Assembly (NCBI RefSeq): GCF_007164525.1
Contig: NZ_AP019791.1
Span: 1,785,501 to 1,849,500, forward strand
Direction of reading: 5' to 3'
DNA length: 64,000 bases
Source: Rubrobacter xylanophilus
GTDB taxonomy: Bacteria; Actinomycetota; Rubrobacteria; Rubrobacterales; Rubrobacteraceae
The translations under genes and the position numbers were made by a program. Positions within the stretch are counted from its first letter, which is position 1; every line of letters starts with the position of its first letter. The notes under the pieces were generated by a model. That model was not told where the DNA came from and searched no databases. It saw only the letters and a list, made by a program, of their open reading frames with translations. Below, one piece after another: positions 53,253-61,239 of this stretch.

Positions 53253-53735
53253 TTACCGGACGATCCGGCGAGCGAGCAGACCACCGGCCACCAGCAGCGC
53301 GCCGGCGCCCAGCGCAAGCAGCGAAGCGCCACCGGTGTCAGGGAGCGCACCACCCGTAGCAGCGGCGGCAGCACCCTCCTCCGCGGCAGCGGCGCCGCTC
53401 GGAACGGTCACGACCTCGCCGCTCGGCAGAACGACCTCGATGACCCCACCCTCGGTGATGTTGATGTCACCGCCGGCCTGCAGGCAGTTCTGCACCGCGT
53501 CGACCGAGATGCCAAACTCCTGCGCGATCTCGGAAGCCGCAGCGCTGCCCAGATCACCAGCGACAGCGCCGGCATCGCCGTACTGCCCCTGCTCGCCGAT
53601 GGCCTGGATCAGCTGGGTGCACTCCTGGTACTGCACCTGCACGTCACCACCCACCGCGTTGGCCTGCGCCAGCGCAGGAGCAGCAGCGACCAGCGCCATC
53701 GCCAGCATCGCCGCCACCAACATTACCTTCCTCAA
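53253..53735 (-). CDS. LPxTG surface protein 1 of a four-gene paralogous array
   Basis: Secreted wall protein, 160 aa. The signal peptide runs to about A24 (AAPALAQ). A ~65-residue conserved domain follows with C39 (YQECTQL) and C84 (DAVQNCLQAGGD), probably paired. Next come a Val/Gly linker (VVLPSGEVVTVPSG), an Ala-rich stretch, LPDTG at 131-135, a hydrophobic helix and ARRIVR. The layout predicts sortase anchoring. TTG 53735 follows GAGGAGGT. Domain function unknown. Its 5' part is identical to gene 3 and its 3' part to gene 4. Confidence 0.85.
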   Translation of the reverse strand: MRKVMLVAAMLAMALVAAAPALAQANAVGGDVQVQYQECTQLIQAIGEQGQYGDAGAVAGDLGSAAASEIAQEFGISVDAVQNCLQAGGDINITEGGVIEVVLPSGEVVTVPSGAAAAEEGAAAAATGGALPDTGGASLLALGAGALLVAGGLLARRIVR

Positions 53736-53781
53736 AACTCTACCTCCTCATGGTCTCCGACAACCTTCCTTGCAAGCAAAC

Positions 53782-53810
53782 ATTCTTCCACCCCGAACTC
53801 CAAATGTCAA
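53782..53810 (-). promoter_or_regulatory. Promoter of LPxTG surface gene 1
   Basis: TTGACA at 53805-53810, a 17-bp spacer and AAGAAT at 53782-53787, read on the minus strand. The predicted leader is about 40 nt. Confidence 0.65.
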
Positions 53811-53911
53811 CGCCTTATCGACAATCTTCTCTCTTTTTCTTAACAAATTTCAACATTGTGATATCCGGCTGAAACAGCGGGATGAATCCGGAGTGCTCTC
53901 AGGGCATGAGA

Positions 53912-53934
53912 AGGGGCCCCTTGACGGGGCCCCG
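53912..53934 (-). terminator. Terminator of LPxTG surface gene 2
   Basis: GGGGCCCC arms at 53913-53920 and 53926-53933 around a 5-nt loop, followed on the minus strand by CTTCTC. Confidence 0.7.
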
Positions 53935-53955
53935 AATCCCGCGCCCGTACCCGTA

Positions 53956-54462
53956 CTAGCGGAGCGCCCGGCGAACGAGCAGACCACCGGCCACCAGCAG
54001 CGCGCCGGCGCCCAGCGCAAGCAGCGAAGCGCCGCCCGTCTCGGGAAGCACGCCACCCGCGGCGGCCGCAGCGGCACCGCCGGCGGCAGCAGCGGCGGCA
54101 CCCTCCTCCGCGACAGCGGCGCCGCTCGGAACGGTCACGACCTCGCCGCTCGGCAGAACGACCTCGATGACCCCACCCTCGGTGACGTTGATGTCACCGC
54201 CGGCCTGCAGGCAGTTCTGCACCGCGTCGACCGAGATGCCGAGCTCCTGCGCGATGGAGGCTGCCGAAGCGCTACCGATGTCGCCGGAGACGGCTGTGGC
54301 GTCGCCGTACTGCACCTGCCCGCCGATGGCCTGAATCAGCTGGGTGCACTCCTGATACTGCACCTGCACGTCGCCACCCACCGCGTTGGCCTGCGCCAGC
54401 GCAGGAGCAGCAGCGACCAGCGCCATCGCCAGCATCGCCGCCACCAACATTACCTTCCTCAT
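53956..54462 (-). CDS. LPxTG surface protein 2 of the array
   Basis: Protein of 168 aa, same plan as gene 1: signal peptide, C39/C84 domain (GDIGSASAASIAQELG variant), VVLPSGEVVTVPSG linker, then a longer Ala/Gly repeat (GAAAAAAGGAAAAAAGG-like), LPETG at 139-143, a hydrophobic helix and VRRALR. ATG 54462 follows AGGAGGT; an upstream in-frame start at 54507 overlaps the promoter and is rejected. Function unknown. Confidence 0.85.
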   Translation of the reverse strand: MRKVMLVAAMLAMALVAAAPALAQANAVGGDVQVQYQECTQLIQAIGGQVQYGDATAVSGDIGSASAASIAQELGISVDAVQNCLQAGGDINVTEGGVIEVVLPSGEVVTVPSGAAVAEEGAAAAAAGGAAAAAAGGVLPETGGASLLALGAGALLVAGGLLVRRALR

Positions 54463-54506
54463 ACCCCCAACACCTCCTCTGTACAGGAACCTTCCGCTAG
54501 TAACCA

Positions 54507-54535
54507 ATTTTCCTAAGCTTCGTTACCCCTGTCAA
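54507..54535 (-). promoter_or_regulatory. Promoter of LPxTG surface gene 2
   Basis: TTGACA at 54530-54535, a 17-bp spacer and GAAAAT at 54507-54512 on the minus strand. Confidence 0.65.
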
Positions 54536-54597
54536 CACCAACATTCGCATCAGTGAACATCCCTGAACACCTTTGCCGCTTCTTACACACGCGAAAA

Positions 54598-54621
54598 GAC
54601 GGGCCCCGGATGGGGCCCGTC
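54598..54621 (-). terminator. Terminator of LPxTG surface gene 3
   Basis: Ten-bp stem GACGGGCCCC/GGGGCCCGTC with a GGAT loop (plus-strand reading), followed on the minus strand by TTTTCG. Confidence 0.75.
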
Positions 54622-54641
54622 CGGGAGGCTACCGGCTGGCT

Positions 54642-55136
54642 CTAGCGCAGGATCCGGCGAGCGAGCAGACCGCCGGCCACCAGCAGCGCACCGGCGCCCA
54701 GCGCGAGCAGCGAAGCGCCGCCCGTCTCCGGCAACACACCGCCGGTCGCGGCCGCAGCGGAAGCGGTAGCCGACGCGGTCGCGCCGTGCGAGCTTCCGTT
54801 ATCGTCGCCGTGGTTGTCATTCCACGACTCCACGACAACCGCTTCCTCGCCCTGCTCGACGCTTACGTCCTCCCCGGCCTGCAGGCAGTTCTGCACCGCG
54901 TCGACCGAGATGCCGAGCTGCTGAGCGATGTCCGCAGCGGCGGCGCTGCCCAGATCACCGGAGAAAGCGCCGGCATCGCCGTACTGCGCCTGCCCGCCAA
55001 TCACCTGGATCACCTGTGCACAGGTCTGGTCCTGGATCTGCACGTCACCACCCACCGCGTTGGCCTGCGCCAGCGCAGGAGCAGCAGCGACCAGCGCCAT
55101 CGCCAGCATCGCCGCCACCAACATTACCTTCCTCAA
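54642..55136 (-). CDS. LPxTG surface protein 3 of the array
   Basis: Protein of 164 aa with the shared signal peptide and C39/C84 domain (QTCAQVIQVIGGQ, DAVQNCLQAGEDV). The linker differs from genes 1 and 2: it is acidic and His/Asn-rich (SWNDNHGDDNGSSHG), a possible metal-binding stretch. LPETG is at 135-139, then the helix and ARRILR. TTG 55136 follows GAGGAGGT. The first 114 bp, including the ribosome site, match gene 1 exactly. Confidence 0.85.
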   Translation of the reverse strand: MRKVMLVAAMLAMALVAAAPALAQANAVGGDVQIQDQTCAQVIQVIGGQAQYGDAGAFSGDLGSAAAADIAQQLGISVDAVQNCLQAGEDVSVEQGEEAVVVESWNDNHGDDNGSSHGATASATASAAAATGGVLPETGGASLLALGAGALLVAGGLLARRILR

Positions 55137-55171
55137 AACTCTACCTCCTCAAGTAAGGGTGCCTACAAGAC

Positions 55172-55200
55172 ATTGTGGGCCATGCAATGCTTAAAGTCAA
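55172..55200 (-). promoter_or_regulatory. Promoter of LPxTG surface gene 3
   Basis: TTGACT at 55195-55200, a 17-bp spacer and CACAAT at 55172-55177 on the minus strand. Two CTTAA blocks 10 bp apart (55210-55214, 55220-55224) lie upstream. Confidence 0.6.
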
Positions 55201-55255
55201 CACCAATTTCTTAAATTCTCTTAAAATTGCCCTTTCGAGGATCCGGAACAAAGAA

Positions 55256-55283
55256 GAGGGCGGGCCCCATGGGACCCGCCCTC
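55256..55283 (-). terminator. Terminator of LPxTG surface gene 4
   Basis: GC-rich inverted repeat with GAGGGCGGG arm and CCATGG centre, followed on the minus strand by CTTCTTTGTT. Nearly the same sequence as the terminator of gene 1. Confidence 0.75.
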
Positions 55284-55317
55284 CGTTCGGCTTAGAGCCG
55301 TTCTCTCTGGGCTTCGC

Positions 55318-55776
55318 TTACCGGACGATCCGGCGAGCGAGCAGACCACCGGCCACCAGCAGCGCGCCGGCGCCCAGCGCGAGCAGCGAAGCGCCGCCCG
55401 TCTCCGGCAGGACGCCAGCAGCGGCGGCCGCAGCGCCGCCCTCCTCGGCGTACTGATACTGGACGGCAGCAGCGTTCTCCTCCTCGGCACCACCGGCGAC
55501 GTTTATGTCGCCGCCAGCCTGCAGGCAGTTCTGCACCGCGTCGACCGAGACGCCGAGCTCCTGCGCGATCTCGGAAGCCGCAGCGCTGCCGATGTCGCCG
55601 GCAGAGGCGCCGGAGCTGCCGAGGTTGGCCTGGCCACCCGCAGCCTCGACGACCTGCGCGCAAACGGAATTCTGCACCTGCACGTCACCGCTCACCGCGT
55701 TGTCCTGCGCCAGCGCGGGAGCAGCAGCGACCAGCACCATCGCCAGCATCGCCGCCAACAGCATTACCTTCCTCAA
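55318..55776 (-). CDS. LPxTG surface protein 4 of the array
   Basis: Protein of 152 aa, the most diverged in the domain (NSVCAQVVEAAGGQANLG) but with C39 and C84 (DAVQNCLQAGGD) kept. The linker is short and acidic (AEEENAAAVQYQYAEEGG). LPETG is at 123-127, then the helix and ARRIVR. The TTG at 55776 follows AAGGGGG; the longer reading from 55848 begins inside the -35 box and is rejected. It is the first gene of the array on the minus strand. Confidence 0.83.
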   Translation of the reverse strand: MRKVMLLAAMLAMVLVAAAPALAQDNAVSGDVQVQNSVCAQVVEAAGGQANLGSSGASAGDIGSAAASEIAQELGVSVDAVQNCLQAGGDINVAGGAEEENAAAVQYQYAEEGGAAAAAAGVLPETGGASLLALGAGALLVAGGLLARRIVR

Positions 55777-55819
55777 GACTCTAACCCCCTTGTCGCGGAG
55801 ACGACTTCCAACGTCACGT

Positions 55820-55848
55820 ATTTTCATAACTCCAACTTCGTCTGTCAA
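55820..55848 (-). promoter_or_regulatory. Promoter of LPxTG surface gene 4
   Basis: TTGACA at 55843-55848, a 17-bp spacer and GAAAAT at 55820-55825 on the minus strand. CTTAA blocks at 55856-55860 and 55866-55870 lie just upstream with a 10-bp period. Confidence 0.65.
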
Positions 55849-55975: not shown

Positions 55976-56110
55976 TTACTCGCCGCGGCCCTTCATAACC
56001 CAGTAGGTAAAGAGGACCGTGGAGACGGTAACGAGGATGATAAGCAGGAAGGCGAGGAAGAAGCGAGCGAGGGGTGGAAGGACGAGGAGGGCTTCCGGTA
56101 GTGCCACCAC
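55976..56110 (-). CDS. Single-TM small subunit of the respiratory cluster
   Basis: Peptide of 44 aa: a short N-terminus (VALPEALLVLPP), one TM helix (FFLAFLLIILVTVSTVLFTYWV) in two parts of the same span, and a basic end KGRGE. It is translationally coupled to the CydA-like gene before it (stop and start overlap; GGAGGGAG upstream). GTG 56110 or 56107 may start it. Position and size recall the CydX/CydS small subunits of bd oxidases, but sequence alone does not prove that. Confidence 0.6.
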   Translation of the reverse strand: MVALPEALLVLPPLARFFLAFLLIILVTVSTVLFTYWVMKGRGE

Positions 56111-57435
56111 TACAGGCTCCCTCCGGTCACGGGCGGGCAGGTTTCCGGGGTGATCTTCTGGTCGAGGGTGATGCAGCCGTTGATCAGGTAGCCGGGACCT
56201 TCGGCCCTGCGAGCGGTCTCTCGGGCGTAGCCCATGGTCATCATCGTAAAGACGACCGTCACGGCCACCACGATCAGGGCGTACTGACTCCAGCGACTGG
56301 AGCGGCCCCAATGGAAACCGCTCGCGGTAGCCTTGAGGTAGAGGGCCAGGACGAACAGACCGGCGAAGGTCATCCCGATCAGGCCGATGTACTTCCAGGG
56401 GTACATGTCGCCGAGCGGGATCTGGGTCCTCTCGCCCTCGGCGAAGACCAGTCCGATCTGCGGGACGAGGTTGGCGTCGGCCGGGATCACGTTCAGAACC
56501 CCGAAGATCGCCATGAAGCCCAAAGCGCCGGCCGCCGTCCGGCGCAGGGCGGGCATCGGGCGCACGGCGAAGCGCAGGCGGTGCAGAAAGTATGCCACGC
56601 CGGCGACGCCCATCACCGCCAGTTCGATCGCCAGCAGGTTGAACAGCCAGGACTTCTCACCCACCATCAGGTAGTCGAAGGCCGCCGGGCTGTGCTCCCG
56701 GATGCTCTTCAGGTAGCCGTAGCCGATGATCGGCTGCAGGAGCAGGAAGCCAAAGCCCCACACCATCCCCCAGTGGCCCATCCAGTCGTAGTACTCGCGG
56801 TCCTCCTCGCCGGCGCTCCTCAGGTAACGCCAGGCCGCCCACCCGGCGACCAGGAAGCCCACGAACGAGATGTTCCCTATGAACCGGTGCATGTTCAGCG
56901 GCACGAAGGTCGGGTTCAGAAACGTCGCCCCCACGTTCGTCGCCGGGGCCTCGGAGGGGGTGAGCATGTAGGAGCCCACCACGTTGATGAACGTCTGCTG
57001 GGCGAGCCCGAAGAGCCCCGCCATGAACCCGAAGACCACGTGCAGCCGCTTGCGGTAGGCCATCCGGTCCCAGGCGTTGTACCAGGCGTAGAGCAGGATG
57101 ATCTCCCCCACGAACATGAAGGCCTCCGCCAGGAGCGCCCAGAACATGATGTTCTGCAGGTAAGACCAGAACACCGGGTAGAGGGTTATGAGCATCAGGA
57201 CGAACGTGATCGCCAGCGCCGAGCCCGAGGCGAAGATCAGAATGGTGAACTTGGCGGCGTTGCGGGCGAAGCGATCGTACTTGGGCTGCTTGGTGACCAG
57301 CCCCAGGTACTCGCTCACCGGGGCGACCAGCGTGATCCCTATAACGAAGGCCGCGATCAGGATGTGGGGAACCACGAGCACCGGGATCAGAGCGTCGTTG
57401 CCGATCACCGGGAACTCTATGTCGCCTACCGGCAC
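56110..57435 (-). CDS. CydA-like cytochrome bd superfamily membrane protein 1
   Basis: Membrane protein of 441 aa with about nine TM segments. Residues matching CydA haem ligands are H24 (VVPHILIAAF), H183 (NMHRFIGN) and the acidic pair E104/E111 (LLAEAFMFVGE). The quinol-binding Q-loop motif GRQPW is absent. The external C-terminus carries two Cys (GCITLDQ, ETCPPV) but no CxxCH. GTG 57435 follows AGGAGGT. It directly follows the cytochrome b subunits, so it may receive electrons from that complex rather than from quinol. No CydB is present. Confidence 0.8.
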   Translation of the reverse strand: MPVGDIEFPVIGNDALIPVLVVPHILIAAFVIGITLVAPVSEYLGLVTKQPKYDRFARNAAKFTILIFASGSALAITFVLMLITLYPVFWSYLQNIMFWALLAEAFMFVGEIILLYAWYNAWDRMAYRKRLHVVFGFMAGLFGLAQQTFINVVGSYMLTPSEAPATNVGATFLNPTFVPLNMHRFIGNISFVGFLVAGWAAWRYLRSAGEEDREYYDWMGHWGMVWGFGFLLLQPIIGYGYLKSIREHSPAAFDYLMVGEKSWLFNLLAIELAVMGVAGVAYFLHRLRFAVRPMPALRRTAAGALGFMAIFGVLNVIPADANLVPQIGLVFAEGERTQIPLGDMYPWKYIGLIGMTFAGLFVLALYLKATASGFHWGRSSRWSQYALIVVAVTVVFTMMTMGYARETARRAEGPGYLINGCITLDQKITPETCPPVTGGSL

Positions 57436-57448
57436 GCCTCACACCTCC

Positions 57449-57931
57449 TCAGGACTGGGGGAAGTTCAGGATCCTGACCAGCGTCAGCAGCATGTTGAGC
57501 ACCACCGCGAGCACGACGAGGAACGCCACCACGACGGCGAACGGCCGCCGGGAGAGGCTGTGGCCCGGCTCGCGGTCCAGCCAGGGAACCGCGAGCAGCA
57601 GCGAAAAGAACAGAAGGGGCACCACCACACCGCCGACCGGGATCAGGAGCGAACCCGGGAAGAACATGAGCATCTGGTCGTAGAAGAAGAAGAACCACTC
57701 CGGCCGCGGCACGTAGGAGGTGGTGGAGAGGTCCGCGGGCTCGGTGAGCGGGGCCGGCACCAGGTAGGAGAGCGCGACCACCACCCCGAGCAGGACCGCC
57801 GAGACGGTGAGGTCCGCCACCACCTGTCCCGGGAAGAAGGCCATCGGCTCATCCGGCCTGTCGTAGACGTTCTCCTCGGTTATGATCTCGCCGTCCTCCA
57901 CGGGACGGGACGGTCCCCGCCGGGTCTCCAC
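57449..57931 (-). CDS. Cytochrome b C-terminal subunit (subunit IV type)
   Basis: Membrane protein of 160 aa with three TM segments after a hydrophilic 30-residue N-terminus. The Qo-site motif reads PEWFFFFYDQ (PEWF in place of PEWY). It corresponds to petD/subunit IV of b6f complexes. GTG 57931 follows GAGGAGTAAGG. It lies 3 bp after the cytochrome b N-terminal gene, forming a split cytochrome b. Confidence 0.9.
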   Translation of the reverse strand: METRRGPSRPVEDGEIITEENVYDRPDEPMAFFPGQVVADLTVSAVLLGVVVALSYLVPAPLTEPADLSTTSYVPRPEWFFFFYDQMLMFFPGSLLIPVGGVVVPLLFFSLLLAVPWLDREPGHSLSRRPFAVVVAFLVVLAVVLNMLLTLVRILNFPQS

Positions 57932-57934
57932 CCC

Positions 57935-58690
57935 TTACTCCTCCTCTTCCTCCAGGGAGCCCTCGATCCTGCGGCGCTCCCTGAGTTTGGCCAGCCGCTC
58001 GGAGTACTCGAACTCGCTGCCGAACTCCCCGTGCTTGCGCAGCAGGAACAGGTGCACCCCGATCAGCGGCGCGAGCAGCGCCGGCAGCAGCCACACGTGG
58101 ATGGCAAACAGCCGCGAGAGCGAGGCCGGTCCCATGGTGTCGCCGCCGAGCAGGAAGCTCACCACCCAGTCCCCGACGAGCGGGGTGTAGGAGGCGATCA
58201 TCACCCCCACCTCCCAGGCCCAGAATCCCTCCTGGTCCCAGCGCAGCCCGTAGCCTGTGAAGGCCAGGAAGGTGACGATGAAGATCAGGAAGACCCCCAC
58301 CACCCAGTTCATCTCCCGCGGCCGCTTGTAGGCCCCGCTGAGGAAGGTGCGCATCATGTGCAGCCCGATGACCACGATGAGGGCGTTGGCCGACCAGAAG
58401 TGGATGCCCCGGATGAGCTTGCCGAAGTAGACCTCGCTCATCACGTAGTAGATGGAGTCCCAGGCGTGGTCGGTGGTGGGCACGTAGTAGAAGAGCAGCA
58501 GGATGCCGGTGAGGAACTGCAGTGTTATGAGAAAGAGCGTCGCGCTCCCTAAAGTGTAGAGCCACCGGCCGCGGCTCGGAACCGGCTCGTAGAGGAAGTG
58601 CTCGGCCATGGAGACGATGCTGGTCCTCTCCTCCAGCCAGTCCAGAACCGATCTCCCGAGCCGGGCCGCCCGGCCCCTGCTAGACGACAT
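57935..58690 (-). CDS. Cytochrome b N-terminal subunit (b6 type)
   Basis: Membrane protein of 251 aa with four TM helices. The bis-His haem ligands are H97 and H111, then H198 and H213; the 15-residue step in the last pair is the b6-type spacing. At the place of the Cys that binds haem cn/ci in b6f complexes (YCLG) the sequence has T46 (YTLG), so that haem is probably not covalently held. ATG 58690 follows GGGAGGA and overlaps the Rieske gene. A charged EEEEE tail ends the protein. Confidence 0.92.
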   Translation of the reverse strand: MSSSRGRAARLGRSVLDWLEERTSIVSMAEHFLYEPVPSRGRWLYTLGSATLFLITLQFLTGILLLFYYVPTTDHAWDSIYYVMSEVYFGKLIRGIHFWSANALIVVIGLHMMRTFLSGAYKRPREMNWVVGVFLIFIVTFLAFTGYGLRWDQEGFWAWEVGVMIASYTPLVGDWVVSFLLGGDTMGPASLSRLFAIHVWLLPALLAPLIGVHLFLLRKHGEFGSEFEYSERLAKLRERRRIEGSLEEEEE

Positions 58691-59300
58691 ACGGCTTTCC
58701 TCCCTCGAACTCGTGCCTGATGCGGATGCCGCCGTCCCGGCGGATCTCGAACTCGTAGCGGTAGAGGCCGCGCGGCGGCGGTCCCCCCACGTAGCCCCCG
58801 TTTATGTCGTAGATGCCGCCGTGGCAGGGGCAGAGGATCTCATCCCGCCCCGGGAAGTAGCGCACGGGGCACCCGAGATGGGTGCAGTGGTTGGAGAGCA
58901 CGTTGAGCCTCCCGGTGAGCTCCCGGATCTCCTCCGGGCTCAGAGGCCCGCGCCCCCTCCCTCTCAGCAGCGGGGGCAGCTCCCCGTCCCTCCAGGAGAC
59001 GAGCACGGCGTTGGTTATGCTCCCCTCACCCAGCAGCTCCCCACCCCCATCGTAGGTCTGCCACTGGGGGAACTCCACCCGGTAGACCCTCACCCCGCCC
59101 TCGGGGACCTCGAAGACCGAGCCCAGCGGCCGCCACACGTCCGGCACGTCGGAGCGGCCCCGCAGCACGGAGTCGATGGCGGGATCGAGCAGGTAGACCG
59201 CCGGGGGGACGGTGAGCACGGCCCCCACCAGCGTCCCAAGCCCGCCCAACAGAAGGAACTGCCCGCGGCTCACCGGGTCCTTCTGCAGCTCACCGGCCAC
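58680..59300 (-). CDS. Rieske [2Fe-2S] protein
   Basis: Protein of 206 aa, one N-terminal TM helix with a Tat-like start (SRGQFLLLGG), then a soluble domain outside. Cluster ligands are C139 and H141 (CTHLGC) and C157 and H160 (CPCHG); C144 and C159 form the usual disulfide. An insertion of about 30 residues (ELPPLLRGRGRGPLSPEEIR) precedes the cluster. GTG 59300 follows GGGAGGGGG. It takes electrons from quinol at the Qo site of the cytochrome b encoded next. Confidence 0.93.
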   Translation of the reverse strand: MAGELQKDPVSRGQFLLLGGLGTLVGAVLTVPPAVYLLDPAIDSVLRGRSDVPDVWRPLGSVFEVPEGGVRVYRVEFPQWQTYDGGGELLGEGSITNAVLVSWRDGELPPLLRGRGRGPLSPEEIRELTGRLNVLSNHCTHLGCPVRYFPGRDEILCPCHGGIYDINGGYVGGPPPRGLYRYEFEIRRDGGIRIRHEFEGGKPYVV

Positions 59301-59302
59301 GC

Positions 59303-60622
59303 CTACTCACCCCCTCCCGGCCGGCCGACGATCTCCGGCACGACCGGCGTCTGGGGCTCCACCCGGTACTCGTCCTGACCGTAGATGGTGTAGGGCGCCC
59401 GGGAGTTGGACTTCATCCAGCCCATCCCGAGGGTCACGACCGCGGCGAGCACCCCGAGCGCAAGCAAGACAGCCCTGTAGCCTCCCCCGGGACTGCCGAA
59501 GCGAAAGCTCCGGTGGGCCCTCAGGTAGGCGACGAGAGCCCCGAGCGTGGCGAGCACCATGACGAGCAGCATGATGTAGCGCATGTACAGAAACGGTACC
59601 TCCGCGAGCGGTGAGATCGCATACAGCCCGCTCACCCCAGCCACAAGCCCAAAGAACCTTATCGGTACCCGCCCACCCCTCTCAGGGTGCCGGCCAGCCC
59701 CGAAATACATCCCCACGTTGGAGAGCACGAACAGCGCCACCACCAAGACCAGGTTCACGTACAGCAGGTCCGAGGTGAACGTGTCCCCCTGGGTGCCCAC
59801 GAGCCGCCCGTAGGCACCCGAGCTCCGCTGCATCGAGTAGGCGTTCAGGAAGCCCACGAACGGCTGCAGCAGGAGGAAGGCGGTCCCCCAGATGAGGCCG
59901 GCGGAGGTGGCCCAGTCGAAGAAGGCCCTGTCCTCCGGAGTCTTGGAGCGGATGTACATGAACGCCGCCCAGGCGCCGGCGGCGAACGCCGGCCAGGAGA
60001 GGTTCGCGAAGGTGCGGTGCAGCATCATCCAGTAGGACATGGGGTTCAGGAGGCCGTCGAGCCCCGCACCCAGGCTGCCGAAGCTCAGCCCGCCCCCGCT
60101 CTGCACAGGGGCCTCCCCGGGATCGCCGCCGGTCAACATGAAGGTGTCTATGCCCCCCAGGATCGCCTGCCAGAGCAGTATGAACGCCGCCGCGGCCAGC
60201 CCGGCGGCCACGTTCCGCCTCCCGCTCCGGTAGAAGTGCACGTAGAACAGCCACAGGGTCAGCACCATCGCGGTCATCGCGAGCACCGGGAAGAACCAGA
60301 AGAAGTGGGTGAAGAGCACCGCCGTCACCCGGGGGTAGAGCCCGACGATGAGCACCAGGAACATCACCGCCCAGGTGGCCCCTACGCTGAAGGTCAGCAC
60401 GTTGAAGTGCGCCAGCGAGTAGGCGAGCCGCCGGGCGTGCGGGTTTTCGCGCCGCCTCCCCCACCACTCCAGCAGCGGCGCCCCCACCGCGTAGCCCACG
60501 AACAGGGTGGCGAAGAAGATGTGGATGAGCATCACCACCCCGACGATCCCCCTGCTGCCCAGGTAGGGGAACTCGATGGAGGGCAGCTCGAAGCCCTGCG
60601 CGAGCATCACCGGGGCGCTCAC
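59303..60622 (-). CDS. CydA-like cytochrome bd superfamily membrane protein 2
   Basis: Membrane protein of 439 aa with about nine TM segments. H34 (MLIHIFFATL) and a second His in MMLHRTFANLSW match two CydA haem ligands, but the helix that should hold the acidic Glu pair (about 108-130, FFWFFPVLAMTAMVLTLWLF) has none, and no GRQPW loop exists. A haem-d oxygen site is therefore unlikely. The GTG at 60622 overlaps the upstream stop; an ATG at 60607 is possible. It lies before Rieske and cytochrome b, so it probably belongs to their complex. Confidence 0.72.
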   Translation of the reverse strand: MSAPVMLAQGFELPSIEFPYLGSRGIVGVVMLIHIFFATLFVGYAVGAPLLEWWGRRRENPHARRLAYSLAHFNVLTFSVGATWAVMFLVLIVGLYPRVTAVLFTHFFWFFPVLAMTAMVLTLWLFYVHFYRSGRRNVAAGLAAAAFILLWQAILGGIDTFMLTGGDPGEAPVQSGGGLSFGSLGAGLDGLLNPMSYWMMLHRTFANLSWPAFAAGAWAAFMYIRSKTPEDRAFFDWATSAGLIWGTAFLLLQPFVGFLNAYSMQRSSGAYGRLVGTQGDTFTSDLLYVNLVLVVALFVLSNVGMYFGAGRHPERGGRVPIRFFGLVAGVSGLYAISPLAEVPFLYMRYIMLLVMVLATLGALVAYLRAHRSFRFGSPGGGYRAVLLALGVLAAVVTLGMGWMKSNSRAPYTIYGQDEYRVEPQTPVVPEIVGRPGGGE

Positions 60623-61239
60623 TCCTCGCGCTCCTCTCCCGCCCGATGCATCACCGCCCCGCTCACCGGCCTGGGACACAGCAGCCCCTCAACCACGTAG
60701 CACTCGCCCCCCTCGCGCAGCAGGATCTCCCGGATCTTCCGCAGGGCGCCTCTCTCACGCGTTCCCGCGAACAGCAGCACACGACCCCGCTCGAAGGCGT
60801 CGTTCCAGAGGTCGGCATCCTCCGGGGGAACCCCCAGGTCGATCAGGATCGGATCCACCCCCACCCGGGTGAAGGCCCCGACCGCGAGGATCGCCGCCAG
60901 CGCGATGAAGAAGACGAAGAGGATCACCCCGATCTGCGGGGCGGCGAAGGCGAAGAGCAGCCCACTGACGACGAACACCGCCGCGAAGGCGACGCTGAGC
61001 TCCACACCCCGGTGGTCGTCGGGAACGACGATGTAGCGGGTTCCCTCCGGAAAAGGCTCGGCCTCGAGCGGGTCGGGACGCTTGAGGACCACCATAAGGT
61101 CCCCTTCCCCGACCCCGAGACGGCGCAGATCGGAGATCGCACGGTTCAACCCCGCGCCGTCCTCCATGAGGCCGACGACCGTGTATCCTCCGCCGGCCCG
61201 CGTGCCGGGCCCCTCTTCTTCGGCTACCGCTGGTTGCAA
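60619..61239 (-). CDS. Two-TM protein heading the respiratory operon, unknown function
   Basis: Protein of 206 aa. An N-terminal soluble part (YTVVGLMEDGAGLNRAISDL) is followed by two TM helices (FAAVFVVSGLLFAFAAPQIG and VILFVFFIALAAILAVGAF) and a soluble tail. The plan resembles ActD of alternative complex III or general-stress-protein-17M-like domains, but I see no decisive motif. TTG 61239 follows AGGAGGT. As first gene of the cytochrome operon it may be an assembly or accessory subunit. Confidence 0.6.
   Translation of the reverse strand: MQPAVAEEEGPGTRAGGGYTVVGLMEDGAGLNRAISDLRRLGVGEGDLMVVLKRPDPLEAEPFPEGTRYIVVPDDHRGVELSVAFAAVFVVSGLLFAFAAPQIGVILFVFFIALAAILAVGAFTRVGVDPILIDLGVPPEDADLWNDAFERGRVLLFAGTRERGALRKIREILLREGGECYVVEGLLCPRPVSGAVMHRAGEEREE

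Follow-up and report, generated by a model that had tools for sequence, protein, structure and literature searches.

Related systems and the Rubrobacter operon

The Rieske/b complexes characterised so far hand their electrons, to our knowledge, to a cytochrome c or to a blue copper protein, and canonical CydA takes its electrons from quinol through the quinol loop. Quinol oxidation by a Rieske/b part and reduction of O2 are brought together in one respirasome in SoxM of the Sulfolobales and in the actinobacterial bcc-aa3 supercomplexes, as is proposed here, though both differ in relying on a haem-copper oxidase with a sulfocyanin or cytochrome cc bridge. The families of the bd superfamily were reportedly defined by Murali et al. 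in 2021. The OR-N CydAA' pairs have been proposed to be O2 reductases without quinol sites and are thought to use cytochrome c (PMC10839748), and in Nitrospirales the OR-N5 pairs lie directly downstream of alternative complex III (ACIII; PMC12342949). The subject of this report is an operon of Rubrobacter xylanophilus, on the minus strand at 55976-61239 of a stretch of 64,000 nucleotides (the window; NZ_AP019791.1, positions 1,785,501 to 1,849,500) which is part of a single-contig genome of 3,022,875 bp (G000). In it the genes for a Rieske protein, cytochrome b6 and subunit IV stand between those for two CydA-like proteins, A and B. We put at roughly 70% the probability that the product of this operon is a single membrane-bound (mena)quinol:O2 oxidoreductase, working with a Q cycle, in which the Rieske protein would pass electrons directly to a CydAA' pair and B would reduce O2.

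Seven genes are involved, counting that for a protein of 206 amino acids (aa) upstream of A, and they are tightly packed, neighbours either overlapping by a few bases or lying 2-13 bp apart. In the order 5' to 3' they are:

60619..61239, minus strand: first gene, 206 aa, two predicted transmembrane (TM) segments, N-terminal domain faintly YflT-like
59303..60679, minus strand: CydA-like A, open reading frame (ORF) of 458 aa, PF01654 E 2e-7
58680..59300, minus strand: Rieske [2Fe-2S] protein, 206 aa, one N-terminal TM anchor, PF00355 E 4e-8
57935..58690, minus strand: cytochrome b6, 251 aa, PF00033 E 6e-45
57449..57931, minus strand: subunit IV, 160 aa, PF00032 E 1.5e-7
56110..57435, minus strand: CydA-like B, 441 aa, PF01654 E 5e-22
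55976..56110, minus strand: single-TM peptide of 44 aa, consensus tail FTYWISKDE, starting with a GTG that overlaps the B stop codon

The likely start of A is the GTG at 60622 (giving 439 aa), which overlaps the stop of the upstream gene. A first-pass annotation, made from the window alone, had called the genes for b6, subunit IV, the Rieske protein, the two flanking CydA-like proteins and the 44-aa peptide, and the Pfam matches bear out both these calls and their coordinates. Its further statement that the operon encodes no CxxCH protein extends well beyond the window, as no operon gene has that motif in any of the approximately 20 homologous loci checked.

The quinol-oxidising part closely resembles cytochrome b6f and the b6c complex of Firmicutes, with a split cytochrome b, a histidine spacing of 14/15 (haem b ligands H97/H111 and H198/H213), two conserved cluster boxes in the Rieske protein, CTHLGC and CPCHGG, and, for the PEW(F/Y) motif, a Qo motif PEWF in subunit IV within a conserved PRPEWFFFF. 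Against the NCBIfam cytochrome b6 model PRK03735 the b6 protein gives E 2e-65, which lies under that model's cut-off. The four histidines, the Rieske boxes and the PEW motif that mark a bc1/b6f core are thus all present, and the c-type cytochrome is what is missing: unlike in b6f and b6c, cytochrome f/c1 is absent, subunit IV has no fused cytochrome c, the haem ci cysteine is not conserved, and the operon has two CydA-like subunits instead. At what we take, from PetB, to be the position of that cysteine, the window b6 has Leu54 and only one of 20 relatives has Cys, a lack of conservation in keeping with a genome that has no c-type haem attachment.

The two CydA-like proteins

Both proteins pass the gathering cut-off of PF01654 (26.2 bits), B with 78.4 bits and A with 30.2, and a profile alignment of A with B runs end to end (E 1.5e-38); a profile comparison with canonical CydA, represented by two sequences, was too weak for use. 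The AlphaFold2 (AF2) model of A, with a predicted local distance difference test score (pLDDT) of 78, matches E. coli CydA (6rx4) with Z 27.9 over 322 residues at a root-mean-square deviation of 3.6, and A, as modelled, has the whole CydA fold. Ten long helices are seen in both AF2 models and can be read as CydA TM1-6, a TM hairpin at the place of the quinol loop, TM7, TM8 and a C-terminal tail that replaces TM9. The canonical periplasmic quinol loop, between TM6 and TM7, is absent from A and from B, in keeping with the first-pass remark that bd lineages lacking it would fit this operon, and the distribution of charges fits N- and C-termini outside.

Invariant in B are H24, E104, H183, E406 and R409. 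By alignment of B to 5doq_A and of A to B, the first three are the counterparts of E. coli H19, E99 and H186; E406 and R409 were matched to E. coli E445 and R448 by motif spacing and their position at the end of TM8 rather than by an aligned solved structure, all five E. coli numbers being those that we take to apply to CydA. A keeps H53, H221 and R427 (ORF numbering), while the two Glu of B are replaced by Ala134 and Ser424. To judge from these residues, B is the putative catalytic O2-reductase subunit. Its extracytoplasmic C-terminal tail holds an invariant cysteine pair, C421 and C433, that may help to form a surface for docking.

Canonical cytochrome bd (qOR CydAB) shares with these proteins the CydA fold and, in B, the His/Glu/His and GluxxArg positions, but has the CydB, quinol loop, GRQPW motif and TM9 that are missing here; the extracytoplasmic C-terminus and the linkage to Rieske/b6 genes are further differences. 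The closer likeness is to the OR-N CydAA' pairs of Nitrospirota and Nitrospinota, where too there are two CydA-superfamily paralogues together, without CydB, quinol loop or haem c motif, and where the OR-N5 pairs adjoin a quinol-oxidising complex. However, the donor to those pairs is presumed to be cytochrome c or ACIII, whereas here the two CydA-like genes enclose the Rieske and b6 genes, and the search for cytochrome c assembly genes came up empty.

Might A and B oxidise quinol directly, at a different site, with b6 and the Rieske protein feeding something else or serving only as a partner? Their fold is after all that of CydA, and archaeal CydAA' is said, by Murali et al., to be quinol-oxidising. 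Yet the region of the quinol loop is taken up by a TM hairpin in A and B alike, and in a genome that lacks cytochrome c assembly (see below) the Rieske protein would be left without a known acceptor, so that we consider direct quinol oxidation by the pair improbable.

Conservation, a second copy and distribution

Rubrobacteraceae are heat-loving bacteria from soil and hot springs. Synteny was followed in two overlapping sets of loci, 20 drawn from 18 related genomes and 29 from a named genome collection, and the order upstream gene, A, Rieske, b6, subunit IV, B is identical in all loci long enough to display it. In a protein search, full-length A and B were both found in 30 of 39 Rubrobacteraceae genomes, of which 28 have them on a single contig, separated by about 3 kb, and G006 and G022 have them on separate short contigs. 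Chance neighbourhood is ruled out by this conserved synteny. Homologues with their CydA-like genes away from the b and Rieske genes, which the first-pass annotation had named as what would count against it, were looked for, and the linkage was found to be family-wide. Outside the family, B had no homologue in 357 other actinobacterial genomes (E 1e-10), two peptide patterns derived from A, of a kind that favours close relatives, met only Rubrobacter or actinobacterial contigs across about 85,000 species, and a plasmid search gave just one weak CydA.

The same genome has a second complete syntenic operon (L006:6935-12616, within G000:C1:2519000-2537000), and it has no cytochrome b gene outside these two operons. 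Their A genes have an exact block of 269 bp in common (window 59531-59799), which indicates recent gene conversion. In trees of A, B and b6 the window copy groups with one copy from the genus-mate G001, while the second copy falls in a separate large group; the window copy thus appears to be a divergent paralogue and the second copy the family-wide form. There is also a lone third B paralogue (L007:6134-7501), adjoined by a DsbA-like thioredoxin-fold protein and with no A, Rieske or b6 gene alongside; G001 and G010 likewise each have an extra B apart from the operon.

As to the outermost genes, that for the 206-aa protein is the constant operon start in all loci that reach that far. The window protein has no Pfam match and its homologue in the second copy matches the stress protein YflT at E 0.0095; it is possibly an assembly or regulatory factor. 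At the other end, the 44-aa peptide adjoins B in 14 of 20 B-bearing loci by phmmer comparison, and is a candidate for a CydX- or PetG-like small subunit. Window 53253-55848, a short way downstream, encodes a tandem run of four secreted paralogues whose N-termini are strongly similar and whose C-termini bear LPxTG-like anchors.

Other respiratory genes

Where, then, could the electrons of the Rieske cluster go? A search of the whole genome, as the first-pass annotation had proposed, revealed neither the haem-copper oxidase gene COX1 nor, with PF13442, any cytochrome c, PF00034 being a model that was not searched. It did reveal a sole CydB, at C1:1621782-1622786 beside another, canonical CydA, so that the absence of CydB claimed at first pass is true of the operon and untrue of the genome. 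PF01578, for System I/II cytochrome c assembly, has no match in any of the 39 Rubrobacteraceae genomes, with 9 of 14 control genomes positive. Plastocyanin-type cupredoxin (PF00127) is missing from G000, G001 and G010, other cupredoxin families not having been searched. These results led to rejection of three candidates: a cytochrome c encoded elsewhere as the acceptor, which the first-pass annotation had allowed for and which is now hard to keep; a haem-copper oxidase as the true partner; and, for G000, G001 and G010, a plastocyanin-type carrier. With no cytochrome c assembly and, in those three genomes, no PF00127 cupredoxin, the Rieske protein needs another acceptor. Since no redox proteins other than A, B and b6 are invariably encoded alongside it, and A and B are without the quinol loop, direct transfer is the simplest account. 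The linkage, the lack of c assembly, the missing quinol loop and the ligands of B together support the first-pass idea of a possible quinol-oxidase-like supercomplex, with electron flow from the Rieske/b part into a bd-superfamily subunit.

The operon could instead encode two complexes, with b6/Rieske reducing a soluble or membrane carrier of unrecognised, non-c type, which would in turn reduce CydAA'. The assumed use of cytochrome c by the Nitrospinota OR-N enzymes (PMC10839748) and the presence of a PF00127 cupredoxin in 12 of the 39 family genomes speak for such an intermediary; that G000, G001 and G010 keep the operon without that cupredoxin, that cytochrome c assembly is lacking family-wide and that no carrier gene is in the operon make it unlikely, though less so than direct quinol oxidation by A and B.

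For terminal oxidases, COX1 is found in two of the 39 family genomes and CydB in 21, two of the latter below cut-off. Of the two COX1-bearing genomes, G025 has the gene together with canonical CydAB within a short stretch (G025:C34:881-5999), and since cytochrome c assembly is lacking from the family this COX1 may be a quinol oxidase. A and B are full-length, and CydB, COX1 and canonical CydA are all absent, in twelve genomes (G001, G010, G013, G015, G016, G018, G021, G027, G029, G034, G035 and G038); G001 is complete, G010 99% complete and G016 near-complete, and several others are incomplete metagenome-assembled genomes (MAGs). In these twelve the operon is the only candidate for an O2 reductase of bd or haem-copper type, alternative oxidase (PF01786) not having been searched. 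Rubrobacteria have been described as without cytochrome c oxidase and assigned a 'cytochrome bd ubiquinol oxidase', and the MAGs studied gave no sign of anaerobic respiration (PMC7901476). R. radiotolerans is aerobic and oxidase-positive, and also uses nitrate (PMC4148983). Its positive oxidase test is to be seen beside a family without found cytochrome c assembly genes, and the dye of the test may be oxidised via the Rieske/CydAA' system.

Could the substrate be other than O2, such as NO or peroxide, or the operon be some other quinol-linked redox module? O2 reduction by these proteins is itself deduced, and most relatives have Gln in place of E111, the residue that corresponds to E. coli E107. 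However, B keeps the O2-site ligands, and the twelve genomes belong to an aerobic family and have no other candidate of bd or haem-copper type, which makes this the most improbable of the alternatives.

A proposed mechanism

Formation of one complex, direct transfer from Rieske to CydAA', the Q cycle and O2 as substrate are what we infer for the preferred reading, that of a single quinol:O2 oxidoreductase. In it b6, subunit IV and the Rieske protein would oxidise quinol at a Qo-type site with bifurcation of the electrons, one going to the b haems and one to the Rieske cluster. The Rieske head domain would then swing to the extracytoplasmic face of an A/B heterodimer, which would take the place of cytochrome f/c1 as acceptor, and reduce a b haem near the surface, from which electrons would move on to the haem pair in B, the subunit with the full ligand set, for reduction of O2 to water. 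A, in which both Glu are lost, would be a structural partner of the CydA' type, replacing CydB.

Several observations weigh against this reading. The methionine ligand of haem b558 (E. coli M393), which would mark the haem at which electrons enter, is not conserved at the equivalent place in A or B. The model of B is moderate (AF2 pLDDT 70), and though CydA is its top match, Z 12.0 over 160 residues is in a range that is ambiguous for helical proteins. In the window's own genome the operon is not the sole oxidase, with canonical CydAB elsewhere. Nine Rubrobacteraceae genomes, mostly incomplete MAGs, are without full-length A or B, among them three MAGs of genus g8. The bounds given above for the cytochrome c, cupredoxin and twelve-genome results count on the same side. 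The three g8 MAGs (G008, G019 and G024) also lack COX1 and any canonical CydAB that scores above cut-off; the gaps in this genus may reflect incomplete assemblies or a lineage that respires in another way.

Implications

The CydAA' (OR-N) pairs and their linkage to ACIII are known; what looks new is their joining to a Rieske/b6 module without a c-type cytochrome. This arrangement was not found in the literature covered, outside which lies the survey of Murali et al. 2021, where the gene neighbourhood may already be mentioned. If the proposal is right, reduction of a bd-type O2 reductase by a Rieske protein is another route by which quinol oxidation is joined to O2 reduction, and bd-type respiration gains the extra proton yield of the Q cycle. 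Thermophiles of the group, R. xylanophilus and R. taiwanensis among them, are already cultivated, which makes purification from native membranes feasible. For the Rubrobacteria, many of which have no CydB, the description of their enzyme as a 'cytochrome bd ubiquinol oxidase' (PMC7901476) would be refined. The wider proposition, to which we incline by a small margin over even odds, is that some of them may have an aerobic chain free of both c-type cytochromes and haem-copper oxidases, its sole terminal oxidase being a Q-cycle complex in which the Rieske protein would directly reduce CydAA'.

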